The translations under genes were made by a program, and so were the position numbers. A stretch of 41,067 bases of DNA, from the NCBI GenBank assembly GCA_009733715.1, contig WMKJ01000107.1, positions 1 to 41,067 on the forward strand, read 5' to 3'. Below are positions 1,667-36,962 of this stretch, one piece after another. Under the pieces are notes generated by a model. That model was given only the letters and a program-made list of their open reading frames with translations, was not told where the DNA came from and ran no database searches. This DNA comes from Herpomyces periplanetae (Eukaryota > Ascomycota > Laboulbeniomycetes > Herpomycetales > Herpomycetaceae). Position 1 is the first letter of the stretch. Every line of letters starts with the position of its first letter.

Positions 1667-2825
1667 TTTTGGGAAGATTTCCAAGGTAAAGACGGGTTGG
1701 AGATGTTTCGGACGAGGACGCCATTTGTTAATCTTCTGGTAGACAAGTAGTGTGTGTGCGTACGTGCGCGTGCGTGCGTGTGGGTGAGTGGAAGTGAACA
1801 AGGGGACACAAGGAACTAGATGAAAATAACCGTGGACAGGCTGGAGAGAGTAGGGAGAAGGGAAAAACAAAATATAGAGGCAAAATCTAGTTAAAGAATA
1901 TGCCAGTAAGAAACGGTTTGCCAATAGACCGAGTAGAAAATTCTCTAAAGTGAAAAATAAGGAACTTTCTCCGATTATGTGAGAGTACGTAAGCGGGGGG
2001 AGGGGGGAGAACTCCGCGGTATGACTTTGTTAAAATGATGAAAAAGTTAAAGAAAGACGCGAAGTGAAAATATTAAAAGTTCGGAATACAAAAGATTGAA
2101 TAAGTATGATAAATGGATAAGTTTAACAAGCATGAAACGGATGTGAAAGTACATAAATATCGTAAAAAATTCCGTGTAAAGAAAAAAGTGTGAAGTTTAA
2201 AGAAGCGAGAACGAGGAAGTTCGATAGAGTAAAGTGAAAAAAATCAAGTCAATAAACTTGACAAAACCGCCTTTGCTTAACCAAGTCACCGAAAAATTGC
2301 AACTAATAGACGAAGAAAGGCGATTAGAAAAACCTCGTGTCGAACAGAAACAAAATGATAAGTAGAAAATAAACTCGAACACGCGAGTTTCTAAATACTT
2401 TGCCCAACCTTCATTCCACACTATTTTAGAAGAGAATGCCAAGCACTTAGTCAGCACAGTCCCGGTAGGGCTGATGCCCTCCACTTAGTAAGGGTGTAGT
2501 GGCTGTGTATGGACTGTGGCGTAGAAGACTGTCGGAGAATAAGAGGAAAAGTGGGGTAAAGAGGGAACGGCTTTGTTGAGATACGACTTAAAGTGGGGGA
2601 AGGTTTGCGAATGATGTCCAGAGATATCAAAAAAAATAAATTAGTTGGGATTGAGACGAGACGACATGGGCGGGGTTAGGCTGTATACATATTTTTTTTG
2701 AAGTGAATTTTTCTTAACGAAAATCACTTTTAAATCATTTTATATTTTACTAGTTTTTATAAACAGTTCAATTTTGGTATTTACAAGGCATGGTTAATTT
2801 AACATTAGAGCTTTTGATAGTAGAT
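1667..2825. other. Gap between SR-protein gene and secreted gene A
   Basis: No convincing gene. The + strand is strongly purine-rich from about 1940 to 2640, so the SR-gene transcript strand is pyrimidine-rich here. An alternating GT/GC tract lies at about 1750-1790. A short minus-strand ORF at 2197-2484 (95 aa, hydrophobic, low complexity) has no recognisable domain. The stretch probably holds the SR-gene promoter and 5' leader, plus the 3' flank of gene A. Confidence 0.4.
1750..1790. repeat. Alternating GT/GC simple repeat
   Basis: About 40 bp of mostly alternating purine-pyrimidine sequence (GT, GC and TAC steps). It lies about 90 bp upstream of the proposed start of the SR-protein gene. 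It is plain low-complexity sequence and could be variable in length. Confidence 0.6.
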
Positions 2826-4151
2826 TTAAGTGGTTGGTAAGTTTGCTATCTCACTGTAATCTGGAGGACTTAAAGGATCCCTCAAAGATACCGTTTCGTC
2901 ATCTTGAGTTACTTTTATATTTTGCTTTTCAGAAGAATGTCTAAATGCACCCATACGTTCCAGTTCATCATAACTGGGAGCTCCTGCTTCAGCAGCTTTT
3001 ACAGTACGTCTTCTAATAGCTTCATTGTAATTAGGAAAATTCCCTCCCCTTGTCTGTTTGATTATATTGGGATCTTCCCCGGGTGGAAAAAATGGATTTT
3101 CATTTGCATTTCGGTCTCCGGTATACTCAGGTGGTGCAAACTGAGACCTCTCACAGTCACAACAAGTTAATGGTTCAAGTATAATCCTAACTCGGATATA
3201 CATATTACTCCGATATTCTGTATTCCTGTTTAACATGAAAAGTAGAGGCACTGAAGATACTCTTCTTATATAAAAAAAATAATCTTCTGGTGGAAGAATT
3301 TGTCGGTTGTAGACATCAAAAACATCTTTGACATCTTCACTTATAATTCCCCGAATATTGAAAAATTCACCAATTCCCAATGTTGTGGGTTTACGTGTAT
3401 GATCAAGTTTAAAAAAATATTTTTTTAATTGGGGAATATATTTTACGTGGACAACCAACCTTCGGGGGACATATTTTAGACCAGACCCGTTCAGAAAATG
3501 ACCTCGTGGAACTGTTGATTCTACATCATCGTATGGTGATATATAAAGTAGCGAATCATCAACAAAACCATAACGAAAAAAATTCAAATTTTTTTCAAAT
3601 TTTGCTAAGCCACTTGATCTTGCCACATCAGACTCTGGATCGGTATAAATGTTCAGATAATATTTTCTCCCATGGTAATTATAACTGGAGCAAAATGCAC
3701 TCGAACCAACTCGAATTGGTGATGGTAATATTTCAACGAGTTGTTTAGCCCCTACCAAACGTCTTCCAGAATTATTTGAATTTGAATTTACCATACTGGT
3801 CTGTGGGGTAGATGAATCTGATTGTGTAGATGTACCTGAAGCTGGTAACATTCGTGATGAAGTTGAGGGTTGCGAAGCATGTGATAAGCCCTGCAAAGAT
3901 AATGGACTTGATCCCCCATTTGAATCGGTAATATGTGCCAAATGTAATGAATTCTCTCCAGTTAATAAATCTGATGGAACCCGTGAACTCGATGAGCTAC
4001 GTGGCATTCCAGAATTTCCTGTTGCAATTACTGTCAACGAGGACATTAATATAGTTGAGGGTAATTTAAATAACCAGAATGTTAAGGTGAGAGACATCAC
4101 GATTGACGACAGAATGTCACCCCAGCTAAGTTGAATATTTTGGTTAACCAA
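2826..4151 (-). CDS. Secreted-family gene A (441 aa, intronless), unknown function
   Basis: Not recognised. Residues about 12-44 form one or two hydrophobic segments (signal peptide or anchor). Residues 50-130 are a Ser/Thr/Pro-rich linker. The shared domain runs from about 150 to 330: YHGRKYYLNIY (159-169), VVHVKYIPQLKKYFF (233-247), ILPPEDYFFYIRR (285-297) and IRVRIILEPL (319-328). The same four blocks occur in seven neighbours. Unusually, the C-terminus after a CCDC cluster carries APPEY, PNYNEA, PSYDEL and PPDYSEI, which resemble PPxY ligands of WW domains. Gene A and gene C are the only intronless members. If the N-terminal segment is an uncleaved anchor, the Tyr-motif tail could be cytosolic. 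If it is a cleaved signal, the motifs would be extracellular. The coding frame is secure and the function is open. Confidence 0.8.
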   Translation of the reverse strand: MVNQNIQLSWGDILSSIVMSLTLTFWLFKLPSTILMSSLTVIATGNSGMPRSSSSSRVPSDLLTGENSLHLAHITDSNGGSSPLSLQGLSHASQPSTSSRMLPASGTSTQSDSSTPQTSMVNSNSNNSGRRLVGAKQLVEILPSPIRVGSSAFCSSYNYHGRKYYLNIYTDPESDVARSSGLAKFEKNLNFFRYGFVDDSLLYISPYDDVESTVPRGHFLNGSGLKYVPRRLVVHVKYIPQLKKYFFKLDHTRKPTTLGIGEFFNIRGIISEDVKDVFDVYNRQILPPEDYFFYIRRVSSVPLLFMLNRNTEYRSNMYIRVRIILEPLTCCDCERSQFAPPEYTGDRNANENPFFPPGEDPNIIKQTRGGNFPNYNEAIRRRTVKAAEAGAPSYDELERMGAFRHSSEKQNIKVTQDDETVSLRDPLSPPDYSEIANLPTT

Positions 4152-5328
4152 CTCAATTCGGGTAACTATAAATGGTTATGATCTAACTCCGAATTTATTG
4201 ATTTTACCATAAGCTTAAGTGGTGTTACTCGGAACTTTTGGGGTGGAACCAATGTTGATATTTTAAAATTGACAATCAAATACGTGCACATACAAGTCTT
4301 CTCTTTATTCCACCAACGAAAAATAGTTAATTATATTTAACAATCCAAGTTGTAGTAAAATTGTCTTTCAGCAATTTTTAAAAACCTGAAATTAACCATT
4401 ATTTATTTGTATAGAAGGGAATACTTTCAGATTTCTATTTTTCAACTAGCGGTATTTTAATTAACATAGTTTTTAAACCAAATCTCTTGCTATGATAGTG
4501 AAGAGGTCAACCGAAAATAATTTCGTTTAACGTATTTTAACGTCACTTTATCAAAATGGACATAATCGTTGGTGTTTTGCATTAATATTGATCAAATTAT
4601 ATTTTCTTACGCCCCTCGTTGATAAAGATAAGTAAAATTAATTTGTATTGCTTGACCGTATCAGTTAACTGAAAATACTGCCAGTCAGGCTGTGGGGGTA
4701 GAAACATCGATAACTGATAAGCATTTAATCGAGAATACTTTTCGGCTAACTTTCCAATAACAGCCCAATTGAATATCGAAATTAATATTCTTGCTGAAAC
4801 ATTGCTCTGAATGACTAGATATTGTACCATCAAAGAGTTTTATGATATATACAATTTGAATAAATTTGCAGTCTTTCAGTTTACAAACTCTAAATGTACA
4901 AGAAATAATCTCAAAATGCTTCTGGCACTGCAGTTAATGTAATAAATTTCTCATATTGAGCTGTACATCCTCAAAAGTCTATTTGAGCTACCAATGGCTA
5001 TATTTGAGTATGGCCAAAACTTACTACATCAATTGGTTGTAGCCAAGTCAATTTTCAATACTCAAATTTACGTCTAAGTTTCACATAACCTTTATGAACA
5101 AGTTACCTCGACGGTTGTATGAAGTTCCAAATATTTTGTTAATAAAGCTGTAATTTCATCCTCATTCATGCTACAACTATATCTAATCATTTAATACGAC
5201 ATCATGATGTTCGCAAATAGCAATCCTCAAATTATTTGTCTGTAAAAACAGCTCAGCAGTAAAAGCTTCAGATTTGAAAAGAGCAATTCTCTAACTATCG
5301 CCATTAACTATAATTTAATCCTTTCAAT
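4152..5328. other. AT-rich gap between genes A and B
   Basis: No supported gene. A 78-aa minus-strand ORF at 4597-4833 has no clear match to the neighbouring family and no signal peptide, so I do not call it. The rest is AT-rich with short ORFs only. It should contain the promoter of gene A and the 3' end of gene B. Confidence 0.4.
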
Positions 5329-6904
5329 TTAGCTTATGGAACGACACGAATCTGGTATATTCTTTGGTGCTGATGCAAATGCATTACCATATTGTTGCTG
5401 ATAACTATCGATTAATGATTTAATGGAATATTTACAAACATCGACATGTTGATATTTTCGTAAAATTATCTGAACTGGTATCAAACTGTTTTTAGTATGG
5501 GAAAGTATCGATGCATCAACTGCGAAAATTCGGGATTCCATAATGTCGGCAGCTATAACAAATATTTTGTTGTTATGCGGTAAAATATGATAACCTTGTT
5601 GATAAAAGAGTTTGATATCGGCTGATGTGGGTCCCGAAAGCCTAAAATAAGACGGGCATTCATTTAACAGACTGACATGTTTGCCGCTTTCTGTTACTAA
5701 AAGATATTGATTTTGTCCTGGAATGTAAATTAATCGGACCAAAAGTGGCTGCATATGGCTCTCATAATTCCGATCCACTATGCATTGCAGAAAGTTAACA
5801 TTCCTAATAATGAATGCCTACGTTTCATTACTTACCAGCGTACAAAATATCCGGATAAGATTTATTAATTAGAACACGCAGCTGTTTTGCTGTGGGTTGT
5901 GAACATTGAACCACTAGCCTTTCCGAGGTCTGAGAGGAAGTTCCTAGGTCGAATTCCTCGGGCTTTTCAAGTTTTGCATGTCGACATACATTTAAATCTA
6001 GATAGTACAAAAATCTGTCCAACTTCACTTGATTTGCTTGATGTTTTTCGCTGTTTGGTCCATTATATAAAAGTGATAACTTTTGTGGACTTAATTGAAT
6101 ATCAGTTTCATCATTAGGTACTGTTTGCTTGTTAACAAAAGTCCGATTAAAATTTTCATGTATTATTCCACCTGCATGCTGAATTAAACTTCTAGAGGGT
6201 GGCTTATTTCTTGTTTGATTCACTGGGGAATAAAATACATTACCCGGCCCTCCCACTACAAATCCATTGCGTGTATTTGAAGGTAAAGGTGCTGATGAAG
6301 GCGATGGATGTGGTATAAAAATTGGAGTTCTCCTCGATCCATTAATGGCTAGAGTCTGATCAGTCTGGGGAGAGGTTGTGGCCTCATCATAATCAGCGAC
6401 TGATCTTTGGCCTGGAGGTCTTTGTGGTGGTTTAGTTCTCGTTGGTTCCAGTAGAGAACTAGTTTTATGAGCAGTTCCATGGATTGGAGTTCCACTGTGT
6501 GCATTTTCTGGTGATGGTGGTGGTGGAGGAGGTGAAATTGGTGGTTTAGTTCTCGTTGGATCCAGAAGAGAACTAGTTTTATGAGCAGTTCCATGGATTG
6601 GAGTTCCACTGTGTGCATTTGCTGGTGATGGTGGTGGTGGAGGAGGAGGTGAAATTGGTGGTGGAAGAGGGATTGGAATTTTACTCGATTCATGGCCCAA
6701 TGATGTCAGGTAGGTTTGTGTTGGAACTGAAAATTTTGAAGATGGTGCTTTTTCCAGCTGATCAGTTTGGGCGAAGGTTAGCGGCTCAATTCTAGCAGGA
6801 TCAAGTGTAGATGGAGAGGAATCATGATGTGGAATTTTGGCTAAGAGTTCTTCAAATAATAATGATGTTATCACAAGCAGAGGTAATTTGAGTAGGTTGA
6901 CCAT
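5329..6904 (-). CDS. Secreted-family gene B (505 aa, proline-rich), unknown function
   Basis: Not recognised. Two exons, 5836-6904 and 5329-5777, join in frame (phase 1) across a 58-bp GTAAGT...TAG intron. The N-terminus (MVNLLKLPLLVITSLLF) is a signal peptide. A long Pro/Ser-rich linker follows, with poly-proline runs (PPPPPPP) and two near-identical units of about 38 residues ending in PTRTKPP. The shared domain starts near FLYYLDLNV and continues through LVVQCSQPTAKQLRVL, MQPLLVRLIYIPGQNQY, HILPHNNKIFVIAA and IPVQIILRKY. These line up with gene A (VVHVKYIPQLKKYFF, ILPPEDYFFYI, IRVRIILEPL). A secreted, possibly glycosylated or cell-wall protein is a fair inference. Confidence 0.8.
6426..6656 (-). 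repeat. 114-bp tandem duplication in gene B
   Basis: Two direct copies (about 6426-6539 and 6540-6656) differ at only a few bases. The second has one extra GGA codon unit in the poly-proline stretch. Each encodes a unit that contains NAHSGTPIHGTAHKTSSLL, then PTRTKPP, and in the second copy direction a poly-proline run. The near identity indicates a recent duplication. Confidence 0.9.
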
Positions 6905-7309
6905 ATCTTTCTAATAGTAAATTTAACGAAAATAAATGGTTAAGTTAGGAAATTGAATGAAGTTGGGATTTTATATTGGCCAGATATTTGTATGATTAAC
7001 ATTATTTGTGCTCAATTTATGTTTTTTATCAGTTAATAAATCACTAAAATTAATAAACTGCCTGGCTATCTGTATTAATTATATGTATGAACCAATTTTA
7101 TGCATTTAATGTTAAATAATTTTTACTGTAAAAGATTTTAGGTTCGACAATCTTAAATGTAATTGGAGTAAACTCTAGCACATGTCTTTTTTAAATTATT
7201 TAAAATTACTTAAAGCCTCACTATACCCTTCCAGTTTGTATATGTCGACGTCCCCTAAAACACTTTAATTTAAAAACATCATCAAGTCACTGAAGATTCT
7301 ACATTTAAA
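6905..7309. promoter_or_regulatory. Divergent promoter region of genes B and C
   Basis: About 405 bp of AT-rich sequence separate the start codons of two outward-facing family genes, so it must hold both promoters. I see no conserved box that I can name and no CACGTG. Confidence 0.45.
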
Positions 7310-8302
7310 ATGTATTTTTGGAAGCCATACAGTGTATTCTACGGTGCAAATGTGCTCATTTTACTACAGTTAAACTTTCTTCGGGTGAGCTGTCAGCAAA
7401 CTGAAGAATCTTTGGCGTCACCCGCAAGTCATGGTGAACAACAGCCTGGATCTGTTGGACCTGCTTCACCGCAAGGATCCAATAATTATCATCACCCTAA
7501 TCTGGAACCAGCACCTCCATACTCCCCTACGTGGGAAGGTCATGCCATTCCGTCTTCACTGGATCCTACAGGTGAATCAGCAGAAGGAGATATAACGCTG
7601 TACGATCGTGATGTGTTGCAAAATCGATACCTCTACGACGGAAAAACGTTTTATATACGAGCCGCTGTTCTTCAATATCCGAGGTTGACATCAGTATATT
7701 ACATGGAATACGTAACTGATAAAACGACTCATTTAGTCTTTCACAGTAAGGTTGCCAAAGAATGTCCAGTTAGATTAGTATTTTTCCATGGGGCATATCA
7801 ATTACGATTTCTTACGGGATTAGGAGAATTTTTGCGAGCACACGGACCGTCTAACCGTGCAGTGGAAATCAGTAATGACCGTCGAAATCAGTACTTGTTT
7901 AAGGTTCAATCTATGCAACTTTTTTCACGATATGATCGAGTTTTGATGTTGTGTAAACTGAATAAGAAAAAAGTCATGTTTACATTGGATTTTGTGTGGA
8001 AAATACCGAAACCATTAGTCTGTATAAATGTCGCATTTACCTTACATGAAGCCAACGATATTGCTGCAAAAATGTTTATTTCAAGTGCAGAAACTTTAGC
8101 CGGTGAGCCGGTTCCACCTTTACCACCAGCACTAATCCCGCAAAAAACCCATCAATGTGATCTTTATGAAAAGCAACTGAAACAGACACTTCGTACAAAC
8201 CAAGCTTCCGGCGTAAACGAAGCCAGAGGTTCACGTCATAGTGATGAATCTCCGGTTTCACAATGGCTTCATAGGGTAATGTTGAGAGATACTTCACTAT
8301 AG
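7310..8302 (+). CDS. Secreted-family gene C (330 aa, intronless), unknown function
   Basis: Not recognised. The N-terminus has a hydrophobic signal (FYGANVLILLQLNFL) followed by VSCQQ, a plausible cleavage point. Residues about 32-100 are a Pro/Ser/Gly-rich linker with PAPPYSPTW. The shared domain has its clearest form here: YLYDGKTFYIRAAV, then ECPVRLVFFHGAYQLRFL, then a strand around LFSRYDRVLMLCKLNKKK and a last block LVCINVAFTLHEAND. The YDGK block is shared almost exactly with gene F, and the CPVR block with genes F and H. One exon, with a clear start after an AT-rich leader. It is probably exported. No catalytic motif is visible. Confidence 0.85.
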   Translation: MYFWKPYSVFYGANVLILLQLNFLRVSCQQTEESLASPASHGEQQPGSVGPASPQGSNNYHHPNLEPAPPYSPTWEGHAIPSSLDPTGESAEGDITLYDRDVLQNRYLYDGKTFYIRAAVLQYPRLTSVYYMEYVTDKTTHLVFHSKVAKECPVRLVFFHGAYQLRFLTGLGEFLRAHGPSNRAVEISNDRRNQYLFKVQSMQLFSRYDRVLMLCKLNKKKVMFTLDFVWKIPKPLVCINVAFTLHEANDIAAKMFISSAETLAGEPVPPLPPALIPQKTHQCDLYEKQLKQTLRTNQASGVNEARGSRHSDESPVSQWLHRVMLRDTSL

Positions 8303-8528
8303 AGCTGAAATTTCATGATGTAGGGTATATTTCAAGTTTTAAAAGCATTTATTTGACGAATTGATAAATGAGTTGGACAGCTGTGCAGTAGACATCGAGC
8401 CTGCACACTACGAGAAACATATAAATATTATCAAAAGTCATTAGAATTTCAGTGTAATTTCTATGACAGGCTGTTTTGAATTAAAAAAGACAATTGGATA
8501 GTTAACAAAGATTCAGTGTAATATAATG

Positions 8529-9615
8529 TTAGTTTTGTTCACTATCAAAAGTTTTCTTGGATTTACGTGGAGTCTTGCGTATTGCGCCCGTCTCTGGACG
8601 TGGTCCCTGGCTAGGCGTTATGATATCATTTTCCGGCCGGGAAGTTGAGACAGATGGAAATGTGTGAACAGTTGATCTTAGTGGTGTATTGTGAGTGAAG
8701 GTAGATAACGTCAACGATTTTTTGAGTGTATATTTCGAGGGTTCTGGATTTGTATGATCAAAATTTACTTTTCCATACTGGGGAAAAATCCATGTATTAG
8801 TAGTTGGATCTTGTGATTTCTCGTTCGTAATACCGTTGTTTTCGTCAGAAAATTTCCTACTATCTGCAGAATTTACAATTGTTCTCTCCAATTTCACGGT
8901 GGCATCATGATGAGGTGAATCATTATTGAAATAATCAGTGTTCACTATGTATAGCCTCTTTTTTCCTTTTGTTCCTGAGACAATAAACTTCTGATGTTTA
9001 ATTGGCGCTAAATACATCCCATGCACATTGAAATGAATTTCCTCATTCCTGTGATCTTTTGATAAATGAAGATATTGCCCAGCAGCTCCAGAAAGTCTGT
9101 AGTCTGGAAACATTTGAAATCTAAGACGGAAAGCGTCTTCTTCACCAATGTATTCGGGACAAACAACTGTCCATTGTTTTTGACGTGAAGTTCCCCCTAA
9201 ATAAATTTATATTCGTTAAAATGACGAAATTGATTTATATGATGTATTTTATGTGATATAACTTAATGCTCGGCATACTTAGTACAAACTGTTGTTGTTT
9301 TTTTCTTTGGTGGGCTAACCAGAACATATGGTTTGAATCCGTTTTGCCCGAAAGTTTAGCGGTATTCAATTTGTCATCATGGATAATTACTTGGATATTG
9401 AAATGACAATCGCAAATATCACTCTTATATTTCTCTTGAACCCAGGGATCCTCCTCATACCTGTGTGATCTCGGTGCTTGTTTAGCTTTTATAAGAGAAC
9501 TTGATGAAGGATGTGAGGAAGAAGCTTGAGTTTCATGGACATCTGAACCGGAAACTCCAAGGATGAGTATTAGCATCCAATAGCTAATGTGAAATATTAT
9601 CCGAAAATTGTACAT
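8529..9615 (-). CDS. Secreted-family gene D (334 aa), unknown function
   Basis: Not recognised. Exons 9279-9615 and 8529-9196 join in frame (phase 1) over an 82-bp GTATGC...TAG intron. I chose the ATG at 9615, which starts MYNFRIIFHISYWMLILIL, a signal peptide ending in GVSGS. An upstream in-frame ATG at 9675 would bury it. A Ser-rich linker (SSSHPSSSSL) follows. The domain blocks are CDCHFNIQVIIHD, WTVVCPEYIGEEDAFRLRF, MYLAPIKHQKFIVSG and DATVKLERTIV, matching the family pattern of CP, then RLRF, then xxxP...KFIV. The C-terminal about 100 residues are polar and basic (RKTPRKSKK) with no domain. The splice join restores the CP-RLRF block, which supports the model. Confidence 0.8.
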
Positions 9616-10945
9616 AGTCTTCCAAGAAAATAAAATTATTTTGGAATAAGTTGTTATGTCTAGTATCACACACAAACTATCATTTTCTTATATTTCTAAT
9701 TGTTCGCCTTGTACAAGTTAGCTTTTGGACAAAAATTCGTGATTTTATCCTAAATGTTATGCTAGAAAAGAAAATAACCAAGAAGTTTTCCCCGGTGTAT
9801 CTAGGAATACACTGGGCATGGTAAATTAAATAATAGAGTAGATGAGAACTATCAAGTTAAGTAATAACTGTATTTGCAATACTGGTGTTAATGGAATTAA
9901 ATGAAATGAAGGGAGCTTTACTTGGCATATGCAAGGCTTATGTGTAATAGGCAAAAGACATGCGAAGTTGTTTGGGACAAAATATGAATATATTTTATGT
10001 TGGACATGTTTACAAAGTAATATGGTGTGGGGGATTGGAGAATCAAAGGCAAAAAAATGGGGGCCTGAATGTCAAGAAAGTTATGAAATTGGAAACAAAT
10101 TTTTTCATCGGATAAATAGAAAGGTACAGTGAAGATAACGATTATAGAGGTAAGTATATTAGAAGAAGAGTTTTTAGACCCACGAGAGAACATCATTACG
10201 ACATTAAAAAAAAATTTCAGGAAAAATTTTCCAAGATGAAGACTAAGAACGGAATGTTAATCTGTACACACTGAAGATATAATACAAAGATATGTATAAC
10301 AGGAAAGATTTTGTTTAAAAATAATGAAAATATTGATTACCCAGCAAATGACCAATTATAAAATGCAGAGAAGTAATTTCGGCACTACAAAAACGAAAAA
10401 TCCAGTAAGTTATTAATTTAAAAATAACGAAAAACAAGTAATTCATGCATTTGGACAATTTATGGACCAGATTGATTAATTCGCGGCAAATTTGATGGAA
10501 AACCGAGTACACAATGTTCCCTAACACCGACTCAATTAATTTAGGAACAAGCTTCTAGAATACCACGTGATCGTCTGGACTAAATTGTACCTGCATAGGG
10601 CTGAAAACGTGGGGGTTACCAGATTAGGAAATATATTAGGAGATGATTTATGTGTGGTTGGAGGATTGAAGGTTTATTATTAACACAGGCTAATTGCAAG
10701 TGATGTCAGAATGCGGAGGTAAATGAAGCATGATACATGCGGTATATATAATGCGTAATGGGGACACATTAACGGTTAGCTTTAAGCGACTTGATGGTAA
10801 TAATTGTAATGTAGGAATGGTATAGTATGGTTAAGTAGGAGCAGTTGGTAACATCTGAATTAATGAGAAAATTTGCATCTAGATAATGAACTTTTAGACT
10901 GATTAGAGACTATATGAAACTTATCTGAATTAACAACTCCTGAAA
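9616..10945. other. 1.3-kb gap between genes D and E
   Basis: No supported gene. Short ORFs on both strands (9929-10132 plus, 9918-10196 minus, 10315-10527 minus) show neither the family blocks nor any domain I know. One CACGTG lies at 10564-10569. The + strand is G- and A-rich from about 10600 to 10900, which may be the leader or promoter of gene E. Confidence 0.35.
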
Positions 10946-12069
10946 ATGAGACCTGTACATTTCTATTCAAGATACATTTACATGATCTACGTTTTTTGTG
11001 AATTATGTTTAGAAGGTACTGCGATTAGACTGAAAAATGAGGTAATACAACAGGAATTTAAATATAGTTCGTATAATTTTGATTTTGGGTTAATTGATGA
11101 GATTCAAAAAAACACAACACAACAAGAGGAAAAGAAAAAAATTGCCAATTTTATTGAAAATTTTACATTCGTAATAAGAGCAGATTTTACGATGAAAAGA
11201 ATTACTGTAGAATCGGTGATAAGTACAGCTATAAGAAGAACCTTTGGAGGCGACACAAAGTTTGTTAATATTTTGCTGGAATATCCAAATATATTAACAC
11301 TAGACTCAAGTTAAGCTGGGATAGAAAATATTTAGGTGTAAAGCTAACAGATTGTATAGATTTTTACTATAAGGAAACACGGGCTTTTGTTAAGTTGAAA
11401 TATGTTCCTGAGCGCAATAAATTTCGGTTGATTTTTTTTAATCTACCCTTAACAAAACTGTCATCAAGTTATTACAGCGGACTGTACTTGGGAGGACCAT
11501 ATGATCCCGAATTTTTGGTTAAATTACAGGGAGCGTCAATAGTACCTCCGCTAAACCATTATTTTTTTTCTAAAGTATTGTGTGTGTGGCATATATATGT
11601 TAGACCTAAGCGAATTTTGAAAGATAGAAATAATTTCTATAAAATTAATCTCAGCCTTCAATCAGTTAAATTACAGCCTTTGCGGAAAAGTAACAAAGCA
11701 GGCACTGAATCACGGGCGACACCAGAAGATCTACTAAAGTTTTCGTCGTGTAAACATTTTTCCAACATACAGAAATCGAGATGTGTTGGTACTGGCAGAC
11801 TACCAGATAATATTAAGGATATTAGTAGACTGGAAAATACGCAAAGTATACCAGTATTTGTTGACCATGAAGCTAAGAAAATTCAAATAAATCCTTACTA
11901 TAATCTGGCCAAGGATTATGACGAGAAACGAAGATATAGTAATCAATCTAAATGGTTAAATGATCATTTAAAGAGCAAGATTAATATAAATGAAAATTTA
12001 AGCCCTTATGAGGTGTTTAAAAAGAAACTTAAATCTACGATTTTGAAACAGGAGCGAAATATGGCGTAA
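10946..12069 (+). CDS. Secreted-family gene E (359 aa), unknown function
   Basis: Not recognised. Exon 10946-11259 begins with a signal-like segment (YIYMIYVFCELCLEGTA). A 44-bp GTTTGT...TAG intron (11260-11303) restores the frame into exon 11304-12069. The same GTTTGT donor is used in the AAT gene of this window. Family blocks are ENFTFVIRADF, KLKLSWDRKYLGVKL, FVKLKYVPERNKFRLIFF, SIVPPLNHYFFSKVL and YKINLSLQSVKL. The C-terminal about 130 residues are polar and lysine-rich. It lacks the long Pro-rich linker of the others. The intron is short, so a frame change in a decaying gene is the alternative. The intact blocks on both sides of the join favour splicing. Confidence 0.65.
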
Positions 12070-12471
12070 TAGTATGAAGATGTTTCACTTGGAAGGAAGA
12101 AAATAGAATAGGGAGGGGGGAATCAAAGATTGGAGAAGACAGAGGTTAATGGAACCTCGGCGTCAAACCCGTAAAGTTTTATTGTGAGGTTTATATACTG
12201 AAGTAGCAAGTGTATAGTGGATGTTGTTTAATGGTAGTGAATATAATTATTTTAGGCTGGCATGATGTGGGAAGTGTAAATTATAGGGTAGAGGCTGTGA
12301 GAAGAAGAGGTGAAACATATATATATAGACGGGGGGAAAAGGTTGTAGGGGAAGGTTTTTAGTAGGAATAATAAGAATGGGTTGAAAAGGTGGGGTTCTA
12401 ACTAGATTGAGAAGGAAAAAAGATACGGTAGAGTGGAGATTTTTAATGGTAGTATGATTGAAGGTAGGGAA
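12070..12471. other. Convergent gap between genes E and F
   Basis: Tail-to-tail 3' flanks of genes E (plus) and F (minus). The + strand is purine-rich (many GGA, GAA and GGT runs) with no ORF or hairpin worth naming. Confidence 0.4.
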
Positions 12472-13480
12472 CTAGGAAAACCATTTTCTTACAGAATTTC
12501 GAACTTTTTGAAATTTTGAGGAATTTTCATTTTTGAGGGTAGTGAGTAAGGCAAAGTTAGTGGAATTTTGATCTTGAGGGGGAGTGTAAAAGGATTCGGA
12601 AATGGTGCGGCGGTCTATGGTTTTACCAAGAGAGTTTTCGGGAAAGGTTTCAAATCTAGACAAAGAGGGATCGTGTAAAGCAACGAGCTTTAAGTCGATA
12701 AAATAGCAAAAGGTTTTGATGAAAGAGCTAAGAGGCCATGCAATTAATACGAGATGTCCGGCTTCATTGCATGCTACAAATACATCATTTCGTAAAGGGT
12801 AAACTCTTCTAGACTGGATGGTAAAGTAAGCTTGATTTGTCTTGGATGGGAGTAACTCATAAATGGAATAGCTGTCTCCGTGTACTAAAGGGGAAAAGGG
12901 GATTAGTGAAGAGATATGAGAAAGAGGGAATTAAATTGAGAGGCATACTGCGAAGGTCCATGAGATTTGGGCCCAAAACACGGATTTGATAGTTACCGCC
13001 AACGTAGTGAAGTCTAATGGGGCAAGGATTTTGGTTGGACTTGAGAGGCTAAATGTGGGTAGGGAAGAATAAGTTTCACATAGTAATTAGCTATACAAGG
13101 TGGTGATAGTAGATATAACGTACATCGATTAAGTGAAGCTTTATTTTTTCCTTTGAGGGACAAGCAAGTTTGAAAACTTTACCGTGGTGGCATGGATGGG
13201 TAACGATAGCGTCGAGGTGAAAGGTTTTTCCATCGTAGACATGAGCAAATTCTAGGGATCGATAGAGAGCTACATCGTCAGGGTTGATAGTACTGTTTTG
13301 GGGAGAGGAAGAAGAAGCTGGCGGATTTGATGGGGGAAGATTAGTATGTTGGGACGGTGGAGGTGGATTAATAGCGCTGAGGCCTGGGATATTTGAAAAT
13401 ATTACGAGCGAAGTAGAGATGAGAAAGAAGGGGATGGCGGATTTTTTCCAGAGAAAGTAAGATAGAGATGATGGATGCAT
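12472..13480 (-). CDS. Secreted-family gene F (289 aa, three exons), unknown function
   Basis: Not recognised. Exons 13124-13480, 12949-13048 and 12472-12884 join in frame with introns of 75 bp (GTACGT, phase 0) and 64 bp (GTATGC, phase 1). The signal peptide is AIPFFLISTSLVIFSNIPGLSA, given here only as residues about 15-36. A short Pro/Ser linker (INPPPPSQHTNLPPSNPP) follows. The domain blocks are HVYDGKTFHLDAIV, VFKLACPSKEKIKLHLID, NPCPIRLHYVGGNYQIRVL, RVYPLRNDVFVACNEAG and CYFIDLKLVAL. The YDGK and CP-R blocks are the closest match to genes C and H. Both intron sites and phases equal those of gene H, which makes F and H sister genes. Confidence 0.85.
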
Positions 13481-13945
13481 TTTGGGATAATTGAGAAGCG
13501 AGTTTGTACGGTATAAGATGGGGGAATATGGTGAAAAGTTTTGGATGGATCCAGATTTAAGGGGGAGAAGATGATAGAGAGGAATTGGATGGAAATCAAT
13601 GTGATCATTGTAATTAATTTTTGGGCCATGTTATGCTTGAATAATTTAAGGAATGAGAGAGGTACAATAAATTAAAGAAATTTATGGGATGGCAGGTGAA
13701 GATTTGGGATAGAGGACCAAACAGAACAGTGACCTTTAGGAAGAAAGAGGGTAGAGTGGATGGGAATGATTGAGAGCATAAAAGAAGTTATGGAAGCATG
13801 AAAATGGAGAATTGAAAGAGAGATGGGAAGATTAGGGGGATTACAAAGGCCAACATTTCTCAGTAGATGGTTGAGTATGAAATATATTGAAGGCGGAAGA
13901 AGGAGAAATTAAAGGGAATAAATGAAGGGACAGTTAATGTTGAAG
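13481..13945. other. Gap between genes F and G
   Basis: Purine-rich + strand between the start of gene F and the end of gene G, both on the minus strand. It should hold the gene F promoter. I see no gene; a 75-aa minus-strand ORF overlapping the start of F is low-complexity and unsupported. Confidence 0.35.
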
Positions 13946-14847
13946 TTATTTTTCGGCAGATTTATGTTTGGATGGACGACGTTTGGGAGGGGGGAAAGGG
14001 GGTACATCGTGGAGATAGGATCTTTCATAGATGAAGAAGAGTTGAAGAAGGACGACTTTTACGTTGGATAACGAGGGTAATTCGGAAGATAAGAGATAAA
14101 GTAATCTTTTGCAGCCGTTCAATTGTTGCATGGCGAATATGAAGCCGGCTTTGGGGATGATATGATTATCGGAGATGTTGAATTCAACGGTATGAGGAGA
14201 TCGAATCGAACAACATTTGACATGATTATGAATAGTGGTGACAAGTTTTCGATTGCTGAAATCGCCCAGTTCAAAGAAATAGTAGTCATTTTCCCAACTG
14301 CTACGGATTAAGAATGAAACGGGTAGCCTTGTAGTTTGATGTTCTAGTGAATGAGCGACGAAAAAATTGGATTTTGGTTAATAGAGTTGGGAGGTCTGAT
14401 GAAGATGATGAACGTACTGAGACATAAATTTTCCTGGGAGCTTGGATCCCAAGCCAATCGGAGTCTATGGGAATGTCTTTTGAGAAGACAATTGGAAAAT
14501 TTTTGGAATAGAGTTATCTCGTCTTGGAGATGAACATCGATGTAAAATTCCTTGAATAGTAAATTTGGGGGATGGGTTTTCCGAGTAAGAGGGCTTGAAG
14601 ATTGAGTAGAATTGGAGCGGTGAGCATTGAGTTCGACGGGAAATTGGATTGAATTGGTGTGATCAATTGATCTTGAAGGTAGATCATCAGTATTGACGGA
14701 AAAGGTCAAGTAGATGGTTTGAGAAAACAGGAGAAGCGTAGTAAAATTGCGTAGAAAAGTCAGGGAAATCCAGGTAAGAAAAAGTCTGAAAGGTGGTAAA
14801 TCCGGCAGAATCCTAGCTTTGGAACTGATCATTTGTCTCCACACCAT
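13946..14847 (-). CDS. Secreted-family gene G (275 aa), unknown function
   Basis: Not recognised. Exons 14418-14847 and 13946-14343 join in frame (phase 1) over a 74-bp intron. Its donor GTACGT sits at the same place in the domain as gene F intron 1. The N-terminal hydrophobic segment (FRLFLTWISLTFLRNFTTLL) is signal- or anchor-like; ATGs at 14847 and 14832 are both possible. A Ser-rich linker is followed by FKEFYIDVHL, RLRLAWDPSSQENLCL, TRLPVSFLIRSSWENDYYFF, IIPKAGFIFAMQQL and NVKVVLLQLFFI. These correspond block by block to gene F, but the CP pair is lost and the tail is basic with PPFPPPKRRP. This is the most diverged member together with E. Confidence 0.75.
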
Positions 14848-15592
14848 TTGGTGATTGACTGGCCATTCAAATGAAGTCGGGTAGATTCAAGTTGAGGGAT
14901 GAAAGAATAATCGAATCCAGTTAAAAGTATTCCGTATCTTTGTAAATCAACGTCGCATCACCAGCACTCCACGCTTCCAGAAAATGTCCTTGTACATATA
15001 CTCTTAATACAATACAAATTCAATCTGCTCCAATCTTCCAGACTCCATTAAACCAATAAAATAGTTCTGGTTCTTCGACCAGTTGGAATATCACCACAAA
15101 TATCATTCTAGGCTTTTGGAACTTTACGGAGTATTTGAATTGTTGTCAATCATCATTTTGGCCTTTTCAGCTTTGCGTTTAGCCTGTTTCAATCATTCGG
15201 TATACGCATTCCGGTTCATTTCTCGATTTAATTCGTCAATATGCATCAAGATCCTCTGAACGTATTATCTTAAACAGTATGATGAACCATCTTTTTGGAA
15301 TGTAACATTTACAACAATTTAATCGCTTTAGTCATGCCTGGTCTGCCAAAATTATAAATTGCGAATGCTAGGTTTATCTGAACGTATTTATCATTTTAGC
15401 ACTAGCATTAATCAAAGACAAATTAAAAAATTGCTAGTCTTATCGCTTGCTTGCATGGAATACCACATTAACTTCTCCTTCATTTGCTCGAACTTCAACT
15501 ATTTTTAACCTTTTTTAAATAGTCCAATCCAATGTTGCCTTACAAAAATATTCACTATCAACTATTTCTTCTCCCTAATATACACTTTCATC
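14848..15592. promoter_or_regulatory. Divergent region between genes G and H
   Basis: About 745 bp between outward-facing starts, AT-rich and without a supported gene. An ATG at 15532 opens a 65-codon frame that overlaps the start of gene H out of frame. If it lies in the leader it would act as an upstream ORF, but its presence in the mRNA is unknown. Confidence 0.4.
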
Positions 15593-16636
15593 ATGAAGTC
15601 AATTCCATTTATTCTATTCCTAACCATCGAATTTTTGCATTCACACTCTCACGCCGCCCCCATTTCCGAGATGTATTATGTTTCTCCAACTGGAAAACTC
15701 ACCACTCTAAACGAATATTGTATACATGACCCAAATTTATTTCCCGTCGCAATCATTGAAAACAACAAATTTGTCACCAGAACCGCTGAAAGTTTTGACG
15801 GTCGAGAATTCTTCATCCATGCTATTGCAAAATTTAACATTAGACATACCTTCGCTCTAACTTGCATTTGGTCCGATATTCCAGACCTTCAATTCCGAGA
15901 GGTATGTGCAACTAAAATTTTTTTTTCCCATTTCTTAGCCTTTCCCACACCCTAGATCCGTAGAGATTACACACCCCTGTGCCCTGTTCGATTCCATTAT
16001 TACGATAATTCATTCCAACTAAGGTTTTTAACCAAAAAAACACTGAACCATCGCAGTATGTCAAATTTCCCTTGATCATTTTGCTTTGCTATTTCCTGGC
16101 TAATCTAATCATCAAAAGTTAACTACGTCGGAAACTTCTTCGAGCTCACCCGCCAATCAAATAGTCAAGCAACTGTTCATCTCTCAGCCAATAGAGTATC
16201 TCTTTCAAATGACCGCCAGTTTGCCATATGTCAAATCAACAAAAAGTTGAAACTTGCCATCTGGGATATAATATGGGTCCTAGAAGGTGTTGTAATCTGC
16301 CTTCCCGTTGATGTCTACATCGCCCAAGTCTACGGAGGACCTTATCAATTTCCAAAAACTTTTGCCGAAGATAACGAAGGTGTACCCATCGTCAAGTACA
16401 AACCCGGCGATGATCCTCATCTTACAAGAAGTTTTGAGCATGATTTTACCCCTGTTAAAAAAATTGGAGTAATTCCCCCCCTTAATGCTGATCGTGGGCA
16501 ACCAGGTTTTGATTCAACCACTCCCTTCAATCCCAAGTACAAAAATACAAAGCAACCAAATTCCTATTTACCCGCCAACTCGAAAGCTGGTGAAAATCAT
16601 GTTTATTCTATTGTCCCGAATCCCATTACTGAATAA
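15593..16636 (+). CDS. Secreted-family gene H (308 aa, three exons), unknown function
   Basis: Not recognised. Exons 15593-15901, 15956-16055 and 16119-16636 join in frame over 54-bp (GTATGT, phase 0) and 63-bp (GTATGT, phase 1) introns, matching gene F. The signal peptide MKSIPFILFLTIEFLHSHS is clear and the linker is short. Domain blocks are SFDGREFFIHAIA, HTFALTCIWSDIPDLQF, LCPVRFHYYDNSFQLRFL, RVSLSNDRQFAICQINKK and VICLPVDVYIAQV. The C-terminal about 90 residues are polar, Pro- and Asn-rich (NPKYKNTKQPNSYLP). It is a very good match to genes C and F. Function is inferred only as far as export. Confidence 0.85.
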
Positions 16637-17455
16637 GGCGATATTGACAAAGATTCAGCCAGTAGTGATCACGATTCCACTGGTTCTCCTTCAAGGTGAA
16701 CCTTTCTCATAATCCCGCCAAATCCGCCAATCCCTTCGTCTCTAAATTGTCCGGTCTTGATTGAACCCCGGTTCTTGTCAATGGGTATACATTGTACCTT
16801 GTAATTCACTACCCGGCGACTTTAACTACCCCTTTAGCCTTCCCTCCCAACGTGCGATATTGTATATAATTGTCTCATCTATTCAATGTACTTATACGAC
16901 TTGGATGTTATTGGCTTTTTAAATATTTTCATTAGCCGGCTTTAAATCCACCAATATTCACATCCATTTCCTTAGCTTTGCTCTGTAAACTTCTTCCCCC
17001 AAATATCCCCCCATTCATTCCACCCGCCAAACATCTACCACAAATTCGTATCCCCTTAAATATTCATATAGAATTTCCATAATACAACCTTTTTAAGTAA
17101 ATTCCATCCCAATAATTCATCCAAACCTTTACCCATTCACAACATCTTGATAAACATGTTAAATCCCCAACTATTTCCCCAAAAATCATCGCCAAACTCC
17201 CCCACGCCACAGCTTCGCACCGCCACTTGCGTCATGCCCGGAACAACACCGGCCCGGTTTCGGCTAAGACTCACGTGGATGAGACCACGTGACCCACGGT
17301 GAAGGTTTTCCGCCCGACTTTTGGAGTATTTAAGCACCAACATGGTTTTTTTCCCCATGAAAATTTTAAATCTTCACGATAGTTTTTCGTTTAAAGTAAA
17401 ATTTTCGAATTTTTATTCGTGTTAATCACTTATTTACTCTCTGTCATGTTGCGCT
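16637..17455. promoter_or_regulatory. Upstream region of the tubby-like gene
   Basis: About 820 bp without a supported gene; the + strand is C/T-rich. A 73-aa minus-strand ORF at 17137-17358 covers the paired CACGTG boxes and has no domain, so it is probably chance. The 3' flank of gene H and the promoter of the next gene lie here. Confidence 0.45.
17272..17291. promoter_or_regulatory. Paired CACGTG E-boxes
   Basis: CACGTG at 17272-17277 and again at 17286-17291, 14 bp apart, the second extended to CACGTGAC. This is the recognition core of Cbf1/USF-type bHLH proteins. They sit about 165-185 bp before the next start codon. Confidence 0.55.
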
Positions 17456-20952
<3,497 letters not shown>

Positions 20953-34608: not shown

Positions 34609-35755
34609 TTAGGTAACCGGAGGTGCAGGTATTCCTAAACTGCGATCTATCTTTTTGTCAAGTTCACTTGAATCCGGTGATCCATATATGAACTTAATTA
34701 ATTTCTTTATACCATCAGGCCCAATTTCAATTTTTCCGCGCGGCCCTGCCGTAAATAAAATGGCATCCTCCCCAGCAGCTTGATCTCGAGTTCTAACTAA
34801 ATAACCTTCTCTCTGTAAACGTAACAATAACTGATCCGTTTTATCCACTGGGGTATGTGTATCCGCTCTTGCACGACGCAAGTATCGTTCAAGTTTAGTA
34901 CTGGTTAAGGCACCACCGTTCAAATATATTAGCGATAAAATAAATGTATATAATCCTATGTAAGAAGCTTCGATTGCTTCAGTAGGGTTTCGTGGAGGAG
35001 GTATAATAGACGCATCACGTAGTTCACTTGGCAATACAGATGAAAGTATCCAAAATTTGCTAGACAAGCTCGCTTTTTGCCAATTTTGTGGAACTATACC
35101 ATAAAACAACAATTTTGTTAGGGCAAGTGTAATAAAAGGGTAAATCTTTCATACATACCACGACGTTGTTGAACGGTAATTTTATCCTTTAACGGCAACT
35201 CAACCAGTTCCATGCCAAAGTATCGCCGGAGTAAATTTTGCGTTTCAGCAAAAACAGGCTTGTATAAACGGGAATGGTTGGCCAAAACTGTTCAACGTTA
35301 AGTTGAGTAGAGTAAACATCGCAGTTGTATACACTAACCTTTAATTCCCATATCGGCACGACGTAGTGGGGTACGAGAGAATTCACTTGCTAGTGCAAGC
35401 CGAACAAGCTTTCGTGCAAGTAATGGGATATCCTTCTTATTTGATGATGATGAAGTAAAAGCACCGTCATCGCCCTCTTCATCTTCCATCTCAACATCTT
35501 CGTTTGGAACTATATCATCTACATCAGAATTTTCACTTTGTCCCGAAGAGACACATTCATTTTCAACAATTGGTACAATTACACGACCACGTTGATTACG
35601 CGATCGTGATGTGAATCCTGGCATATTTTCTTCGCCAAATCCATTCTATACCGTAAAAATATCTCTACCCGTTTTAGCCATTTCTTAATAAACCAAAAAA
35701 AATCAACAACATAAGCCACAGATGAACTCACCCTTGTACGTCGCCCACCGGCCAT
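34609..35755 (-). CDS. NSE3: Nse3 (MAGE-domain subunit of SMC5/6)
   Basis: Nse3 pairs with Nse1 and Nse4 in the SMC5/6 DNA-repair complex. Four exons join in frame to 314 aa: 35732-35755 (only 8 codons, MAGGRRTR), 35339-35645, 35159-35287 and 34609-35093, with GTGAGT, GTTAGT and GTATGT donors. The N-terminal 75 residues are acidic and Ser-rich. The MAGE homology begins at LLARKLVRLALASEFSRTPL and continues through RLYKPVFAETQNLLRRYFGM, ELVELP, KFWILSSVLPSELRD, and the winged-helix part YIGLYTFILSLIYLNGGAL and LERYLRRARADTHTP, ending in the wing LLLRLQREGYLVRTRD. Without splicing only fragments are seen. Head to head with ATP9. Confidence 0.9.
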
Positions 35756-36286: not shown

Positions 36287-36962
36287 AGCTGACTCGGCAC
36301 AGAATGTCGTCTTATATCTCTCGCGTTACTACCAAATCCGCCTTAGCGTCAACCGCTATGCGTGCTTCGATGAAGCAAAGTTCTTTCGCTTCAAATTCCC
36401 TTCGTTTTTCCCACAATCGTACGTACCCTTTGGATAATTTTTTGGAATTTTTTCAACTAACTTTCTCGTCAAGTTTCCGCTTCTCGCTTGCCTAGCTCAA
36501 TTAACAAGCAAATACCATGCGTTGGATCTGGTAGTAGCTTACTCACGATTGCTCGTCGTTCCAATCTTCCCATGAACGTTTGGCGTAATGCTATGCAGAG
36601 TCGTGGTGTCGTTGCTGAAACCACTGCTGCAGCTTTGATAGCCTCAGCCAAGATTCAAGGTGCTGGTCTCGCGACAATTGGTTTAGCCGGTGCCGGTGTG
36701 GGTATCGGAACTGTGTTCGGTGCTCTTATTCAAGTAGGTTTACTATTATGTTTTTTCATCTCTTTATCCTTGTCACTCCTCATAGGCCCCCCTCCTCTCT
36801 CCTTTATTTTTATATGATTCTGACTTTAATATACAGGGTGTTGCTCGCAATCCAAGCTTACGCGCCCAACTCTTCCAATACGCTGTATTGGGATTTGCTT
36901 TCGCTGAGGCTACCGGACTGTTCGCTCTGATGATGTCTTTCCTTCTGCTCTACGTCGCCTAA
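36283..36962 (+). CDS. ATP9: ATP synthase c-subunit (subunit 9), nuclear-encoded with mitochondrial presequence
   Basis: Forms the c-ring of the mitochondrial Fo motor. Exons 36283-36418, 36474-36733 and 36837-36962 join in frame to 173 aa with GTACGT and GTAGGT donors. Residues 1 to about 95 are a basic, Ser-rich presequence ([32 protein letters not shown]). The mature part is two transmembrane hairpin helices: [20 protein letters not shown], the polar loop [13 protein letters not shown], and [20 protein letters not shown] with the proton-binding Glu in FAEATG. An intron falls exactly between helix 1 and the RNPS loop. The end [10 protein letters not shown] resembles mitochondrially encoded fungal subunit 9 more than the classic nuclear ascomycete form. 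A start at 36304 (MSSYIS) is possible. Confidence 0.95.

Follow-up and report, generated by a model that had tools for sequence, protein, structure and literature searches.

Eight neighbouring genes, A to H, at 2826–16636 of contig WMKJ01000107.1 of Herpomyces periplanetae raise the question of whether proteins so different in sequence can descend from a single ancestor, and what such a set of proteins might do for the fungus. H. periplanetae is an obligate cockroach biotroph with a genome of 15.0 Mb and a guanine-plus-cytosine (GC) content of 40.2% (PMC7005119). The window analysed here is the entire contig of 41,067 bases, taken from a genome assembly of 13.79 Mb in 220 contigs. A preliminary description had proposed that the eight genes, in the orientations − − + − + − − +, are diverged paralogues of low identity whose products all start with a hydrophobic signal and carry the same blocks in the same order. 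Our spliced gene models match both the coordinates and the orientations, and, judged by the profile and register comparisons described below, A–H form one homologous family, to which A belongs only marginally.

Homology of the eight proteins

Alignment of all eight proteins on a CPxRL-type strand delimits a core block, running from this strand to the last strand, of 99, 100, 99, 101, 99, 97, 99 and 98 residues in A to H, respectively. The order and spacing of blocks noted earlier are thus borne out, with a core of 97–101 residues in 8/8 proteins. The eight-core alignment has 0 invariant columns.

Clear pairwise similarity is limited to C, F and H (pairwise blastp, 1e-9 to 1e-12). The relationship among all eight was assessed by a leave-one-out test, in which a profile built from seven cores was compared with the eighth full-length protein, repeated for all eight. 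As controls we used 113 open frames, each 120 residues or longer and drawn from other contigs or the right part of this one, together with 100 shuffles of each protein itself. The cores had been chosen by pattern, which favours the profile, while the position found in the left-out protein was unconstrained. Each of the eight proteins was matched at its own core, above 113/113 control frames and 100/100 shuffles (scores: A 17.7, B 44.1, C 57.8, D 40.5, E 31.2, F 58.3, G 23.4, H 44.8). In leave-one-out profile comparison, C, F and H reached probabilities of 97.5–98.6%.

A comparison that uses no profile points the same way, as in 18 of the 28 pairs the best local alignment follows the core register, where shuffles lead one to expect 1.0; with the C/F/H pairs removed, 15/25 are in register and 0.84 are expected. 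The proposal of diverged paralogues with low identity is upheld by these two tests. When the profile was built from C, F and H only, the number of shuffles (of 60) scoring as well was 0 for B, 2 for D, 8 for A, 10 for G and 47 for E. Compared with 53 control frames, read forward and reversed, B scored above all, and D scored above all 53 forward frames while two reversed ones reached it. The locus consists of neighbouring genes of common origin whose sequence similarity is mostly lost, as in clusters of the sequence-unrelated, structurally similar (SUSS) type.

Gene models and intron positions

The gene models were assembled from open frames and from the sequence as read, with exons joined by way of donor, branch and acceptor patterns. 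Introns are absent from A and C, single in B, D, E and G and paired in F and H; a start, a stop and a full-length model are present in 8/8 genes. The models are as follows.

2826–4097, minus strand: gene A, 423 residues, one exon; core block 3168–3464; N-terminal part and C-terminal tail polar, N-terminal part long
6904–5329, minus strand: gene B, 505 residues, one intron
5836–6904, minus strand: gene B exon 1; signal-like start, proline-rich stretch with tandem repeat, first strands
5329–5777, minus strand: gene B exon 2; core block 5452–5751
7310–8302, plus strand: gene C, 330 residues, one exon; core block 7757–8053
9615–8529, minus strand: gene D, 334 residues, one intron
9279–9615, minus strand: gene D exon 1
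8529–9196, minus strand: gene D exon 2; core block 8877–9179
10946–12069, plus strand: gene E, 359 residues, one intron
10946–11259, plus strand: gene E exon 1; 44-nucleotide intron model, donor GTTTGT, the least certain junction
11304–12069, plus strand: gene E exon 2; core block 11377–11673
13480–12472, minus strand: gene F, 289 residues, two introns
13124–13480, minus strand: gene F exon 1; bears the strand YDGKTFHL
12949–13048, minus strand: gene F exon 2; contains CPIRLHYVGGNYQIRV; flanking introns in phase 0 and phase 1, like H
12472–12884, minus strand: gene F exon 3; core block end at about 12676
14847–13946, minus strand: gene G, 275 residues, one intron
14418–14847, minus strand: gene G exon 1; hydrophobic over a long N-terminal stretch, which may be a signal or an anchor
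13946–14343, minus strand: gene G exon 2; core block 14036–14332
15593–16636, plus strand: gene H, 308 residues, two introns
15593–15901, plus strand: gene H exon 1; bears the strand FDGREFFI
15956–16055, plus strand: gene H exon 2; contains CPVRFHYYDNSFQLRF; flanking introns in phase 0 and phase 1, like F
16119–16636, plus strand: gene H exon 3; core block end at about 16330

The two introns of F and those of H have the same positions relative to the start of the core (−6 in phase 0 and +27 in phase 1), the second acceptor of H, AAAAG, having been picked by eye for frame and for likeness to F. The introns of D, G and B stand at −6, −4 and −9, in phase 1 in all three. These common intron positions provide further support for one family. 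The cluster is AT-rich, with a GC fraction of 0.324–0.395 in 2-kb windows of 2001–16000 compared to 0.395–0.485 in the rest of the contig.

Two further observations concern the cores. A and E have a 26-nucleotide stretch in common (3269–3294 and 11547–11572, 77%), in opposite orientation and underlying the segments ILPPEDYFFYI and IVPPLNHYFFS, respectively. Between A and B, a short minus-strand frame at 4493–4591 is similar to the third block (VTLKYVKRNYFRL) and could be what is left of a ninth family member; its profile score is not unusual, being equalled by 48/1200 control segments.

Probable signals, linkers and tails

A 12-residue stretch at the N-terminus has a hydropathy of at least 1.75 in 7/8 proteins (1.76–2.30) compared to 5/53 control frames. 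The hydrophobic start attributed earlier to all eight proteins is therefore clear in seven and doubtful in G. These values are no more than suggestive of export, which we consider likely. Polar residues and proline (the set PSTQNGDEKR) account for 54–85% of the sequence before the domain in seven genes and for 25% in H, where that part has only 4 residues; the fraction is 57–77% after the domain and 45–53% within the core. The N-terminal part is longest in B, with up to 260 residues, and the proline-rich stretch of B contains a 114-nucleotide tandem repeat in 2.1 copies (6425–6662). By eye, the C-terminal tail of A bears two PPxY motifs (PPEY and PPDY), which are odd in a secreted protein; such motifs are WW-domain ligands in other proteins.

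Searches for relatives

No known family had been recognised in the preliminary description, and the searches agree with it. Pfam gave 0 matches above cut-off for the eight spliced proteins. At E ≤ 1 it gave three families, each in one member and none of them lipocalin, the best being PF22713 with E = 0.0064; the frame of E exon 1 alone matched PF22713 with E = 0.00086 and 20 bits, the cut-off being 27. The microbial and T2 ribonuclease families (PF00545, PF00445) were not among the Pfam matches of the eight spliced proteins, and an exon-by-exon search of the genome for ribonucleases found no PF00445 at E ≤ 0.001 and no PF00545 at E ≤ 1. NCBIfam returned no family for the eight, with one match at E = 0.1. 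A collection of about 5.8 billion proteins, queried with C and with the C/F/H profile and not with the other five genes, gave no match at E ≤ 1 among 1276 and 3521 candidates, respectively. PDB sequences likewise gave no significant match: the C/F/H profile found none up to E = 10 and the eight-core profile found two matches, at E = 0.43 and 0.65.

Searches of the genome with C, A, F and strung-together H+B and D+E+G domains recovered only this cluster. These searches detect C–F (2.8e-10) and C–H (4.8e-7) and miss more distant members, so distant copies may exist elsewhere in the genome.

The missing hits, in collections that yielded no close relative of the fungus, suggest a possibly lineage-specific family. 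The ARG5,6 gene beside the cluster resembles Pezizomycotina homologues, with 53–57% identity in the best 120 of 2404 matches; among the matches listed, the closest is 55–57% identical and the best named ones are from Eremomyces, Tothia, Verruconis and Trichodelitschia, all of them Dothideomycetes.

Proposed origin and function, and alternative explanations

We propose that A–H arose from one ancestral secreted-protein gene by local duplication and inversions. Each protein would start with a hydrophobic signal, followed by a polar linker whose length varies greatly, an all-beta domain of about 150–160 residues that combines N-terminal strands with the 97–101-residue core block, and a variable polar tail. 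The domain may fold as a single closed, barrel-like unit, and the want of any invariant column in the eight-core alignment argues for a binding scaffold rather than an enzyme. By analogy with published sequence-unrelated, structurally similar effector clusters, whose way of working the array might share, the fungus would secrete the proteins where it touches another organism, and the strands would preserve the fold as loops and tails change and come to bind different partners. To this reading as a whole, a duplicated and diverged secreted beta-domain family with an effector-like contact role, we give about even chances. The earlier interpretation as a lineage-specific surface or effector family stands as regards one family, local expansion, strong divergence and probable export; the missing hits hint that it is also specific to the lineage.

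Several points weigh against the reading just given. A is the weakest member, with a leave-one-out score of 17.7 next to a control maximum of 17.4. In ten of the 28 pairs the best alignment misses the register, and some in-register alignments are no better than shuffles (A–D is equalled by 21, A–F by 20 and E–F by 27 of 100). With the C/F/H-only profile, A, E and G are equalled by 14, 11 and 10 of 53 forward control frames, respectively, and reversed G scores higher (18.1) than G itself (16.2). The intron of E, at offset −25 in phase 2, is mismatched to those of the other genes. G has a weak N-terminal hydropathy of 1.52 (a value of 1.5 is reached by 12/53 control frames), and the 12-residue stretch of highest hydropathy lies within the domain rather than at the N-terminus in both G and H. 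C (7577–8104) is the sole member whose structure was modelled, and the model is weak (predicted local distance difference test, pLDDT, 46.3; predicted template modelling score, pTM, 0.39) and its input alignment had been steered by trimming. Host contact is assumed.

Could the family be restricted to C, F, H, B and D, with A, E and G as unrelated secreted beta-rich lookalikes? The C/F/H profile indeed scores these three no better than many shuffles or control frames, and the leave-one-out score of A barely exceeds the controls. However, the leave-one-out matches of A, E and G fall where expected, the pairs A–B, A–D, A–E, A–F, A–G, B–E, D–E, D–G, E–F and G–H are in register, and A and E have their 26-nucleotide stretch in common at 77%, and we consider a restricted family improbable. 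More improbable still is a decaying remnant in which several members are pseudogenes. The minus-strand frame at 4493–4591 resembles a broken third block (48/1200 control segments score as high) and E requires a 44-nucleotide intron with a poor donor, but full-length models with start and stop, as well as the core length, are kept in 8/8 genes. The domain could also be a strongly diverged known fold, likeliest a small-ligand-binding up-and-down beta-barrel (lipocalin, avidin or calycin-like) or a beta-trefoil, which we consider unlikely and which would be compatible with the reading proposed above. A lipocalin or calycin would be an eight-stranded up-and-down barrel; the model of C, of low confidence, resembles lipocalins, avidins and related barrels in the number and order of its strands, and by eye a glycine directly precedes an aromatic residue of the first strand. 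A lipocalin or calycin profile match was sought in Pfam with the eight spliced proteins and was not found. As regards beta-trefoil proteins such as clitocypin, the chain length is similar, one segment in B looks trefoil-like by eye, and a Foldseek comparison placed a protein of this kind at rank 33 with an E of only 0.58. A beta-trefoil would consist of three repeats, each about 45 residues long; a comparison limited to the N-terminal strands against the core found no repeat (score 9.1).

The more serious rival concerns function. A homologous secreted family might serve the fungus itself, in the wall or spore coat, in mating or in self-recognition, and its fast divergence would then be unrelated to a host. 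The proteins are not tied to a host by any data, and polar linkers and tails are familiar from wall proteins too. Such diverged families are not limited to plant pathogens and occur in non-pathogens as well (PMC9816061), which makes a wall, spore or recognition role a rival to be taken seriously. On the other side, Pfam gave no wall-protein or other family, and effector clusters are described as showing this combination of a local array, extreme divergence and a single conserved core, a combination that leaves room for use by the fungus itself. We regard such use as possible, if on balance rather unlikely.

If the effector-like reading is true, the cluster would represent a secreted orphan family of an ascomycete with a small genome, recognised through its block order rather than through a database hit. 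It would also be a compact example of a duplicated gene losing sequence similarity while the core length stays constant, with two members still retaining both introns. The eight genes would further provide a first candidate set for the dealings of the fungus with its partner; judged by title, none of the papers listed in literature searches on Laboulbeniomycetes and their genomes deals with secreted effectors of these fungi.

Neighbouring features of the contig

17426–18226, plus strand: reading frame in the interval from H to ARG5,6; hydrophobic stretch close to the end, start not signal-like
34609–35148: MAGE-domain protein
36461–36817: putative nuclear gene for ATP synthase subunit c, by eye only and with no supporting Pfam match

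The frame at 17426–18226, which by eye may be tubby- or scramblase-like, has no Pfam match at E ≤ 1 and does not rank among the eight gap segments that fit the family profile best.

Comparison with known systems

The ribonuclease-like effectors of powdery mildews are a small, secreted and diverged family that keeps an intron at a conserved place in the region of the domain; A–H, whose export is probable, are alike in these respects. They differ in that A–H have no ribonuclease Pfam match and that a YxC motif common to A–H was not seen by eye. A Y/F/WxC motif is described for the mildew proteins (PMC9816061).

It is conceivable, though we think it improbable, that a reduced, host-bound ascomycete, perhaps living as an ectoparasite of arthropods as Herpomyces does, has evolved its own effector-like beta-barrel array, each paralogue binding a different small molecule or protein of the host; by analogy, such an array would parallel the salivary lipocalins of blood-feeding arthropods.

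A closer parallel is offered by a segment of Ustilago maydis in which seemingly unrelated secreted proteins share the Tin2 fold by predicted structures, some of them with disordered segments attached to the core (PMC9816061). The Ustilago cluster, as given there, has 24 genes in 40 kb compared to eight in 14 kb here, and the likeness is one of pattern. Both clusters consist of adjacent genes of common origin for secreted proteins, in A–H probably so, whose similarity is detectable in sub-groups only, and both have conserved core strands, diverged surroundings and low-complexity polar segments joined to the domain.
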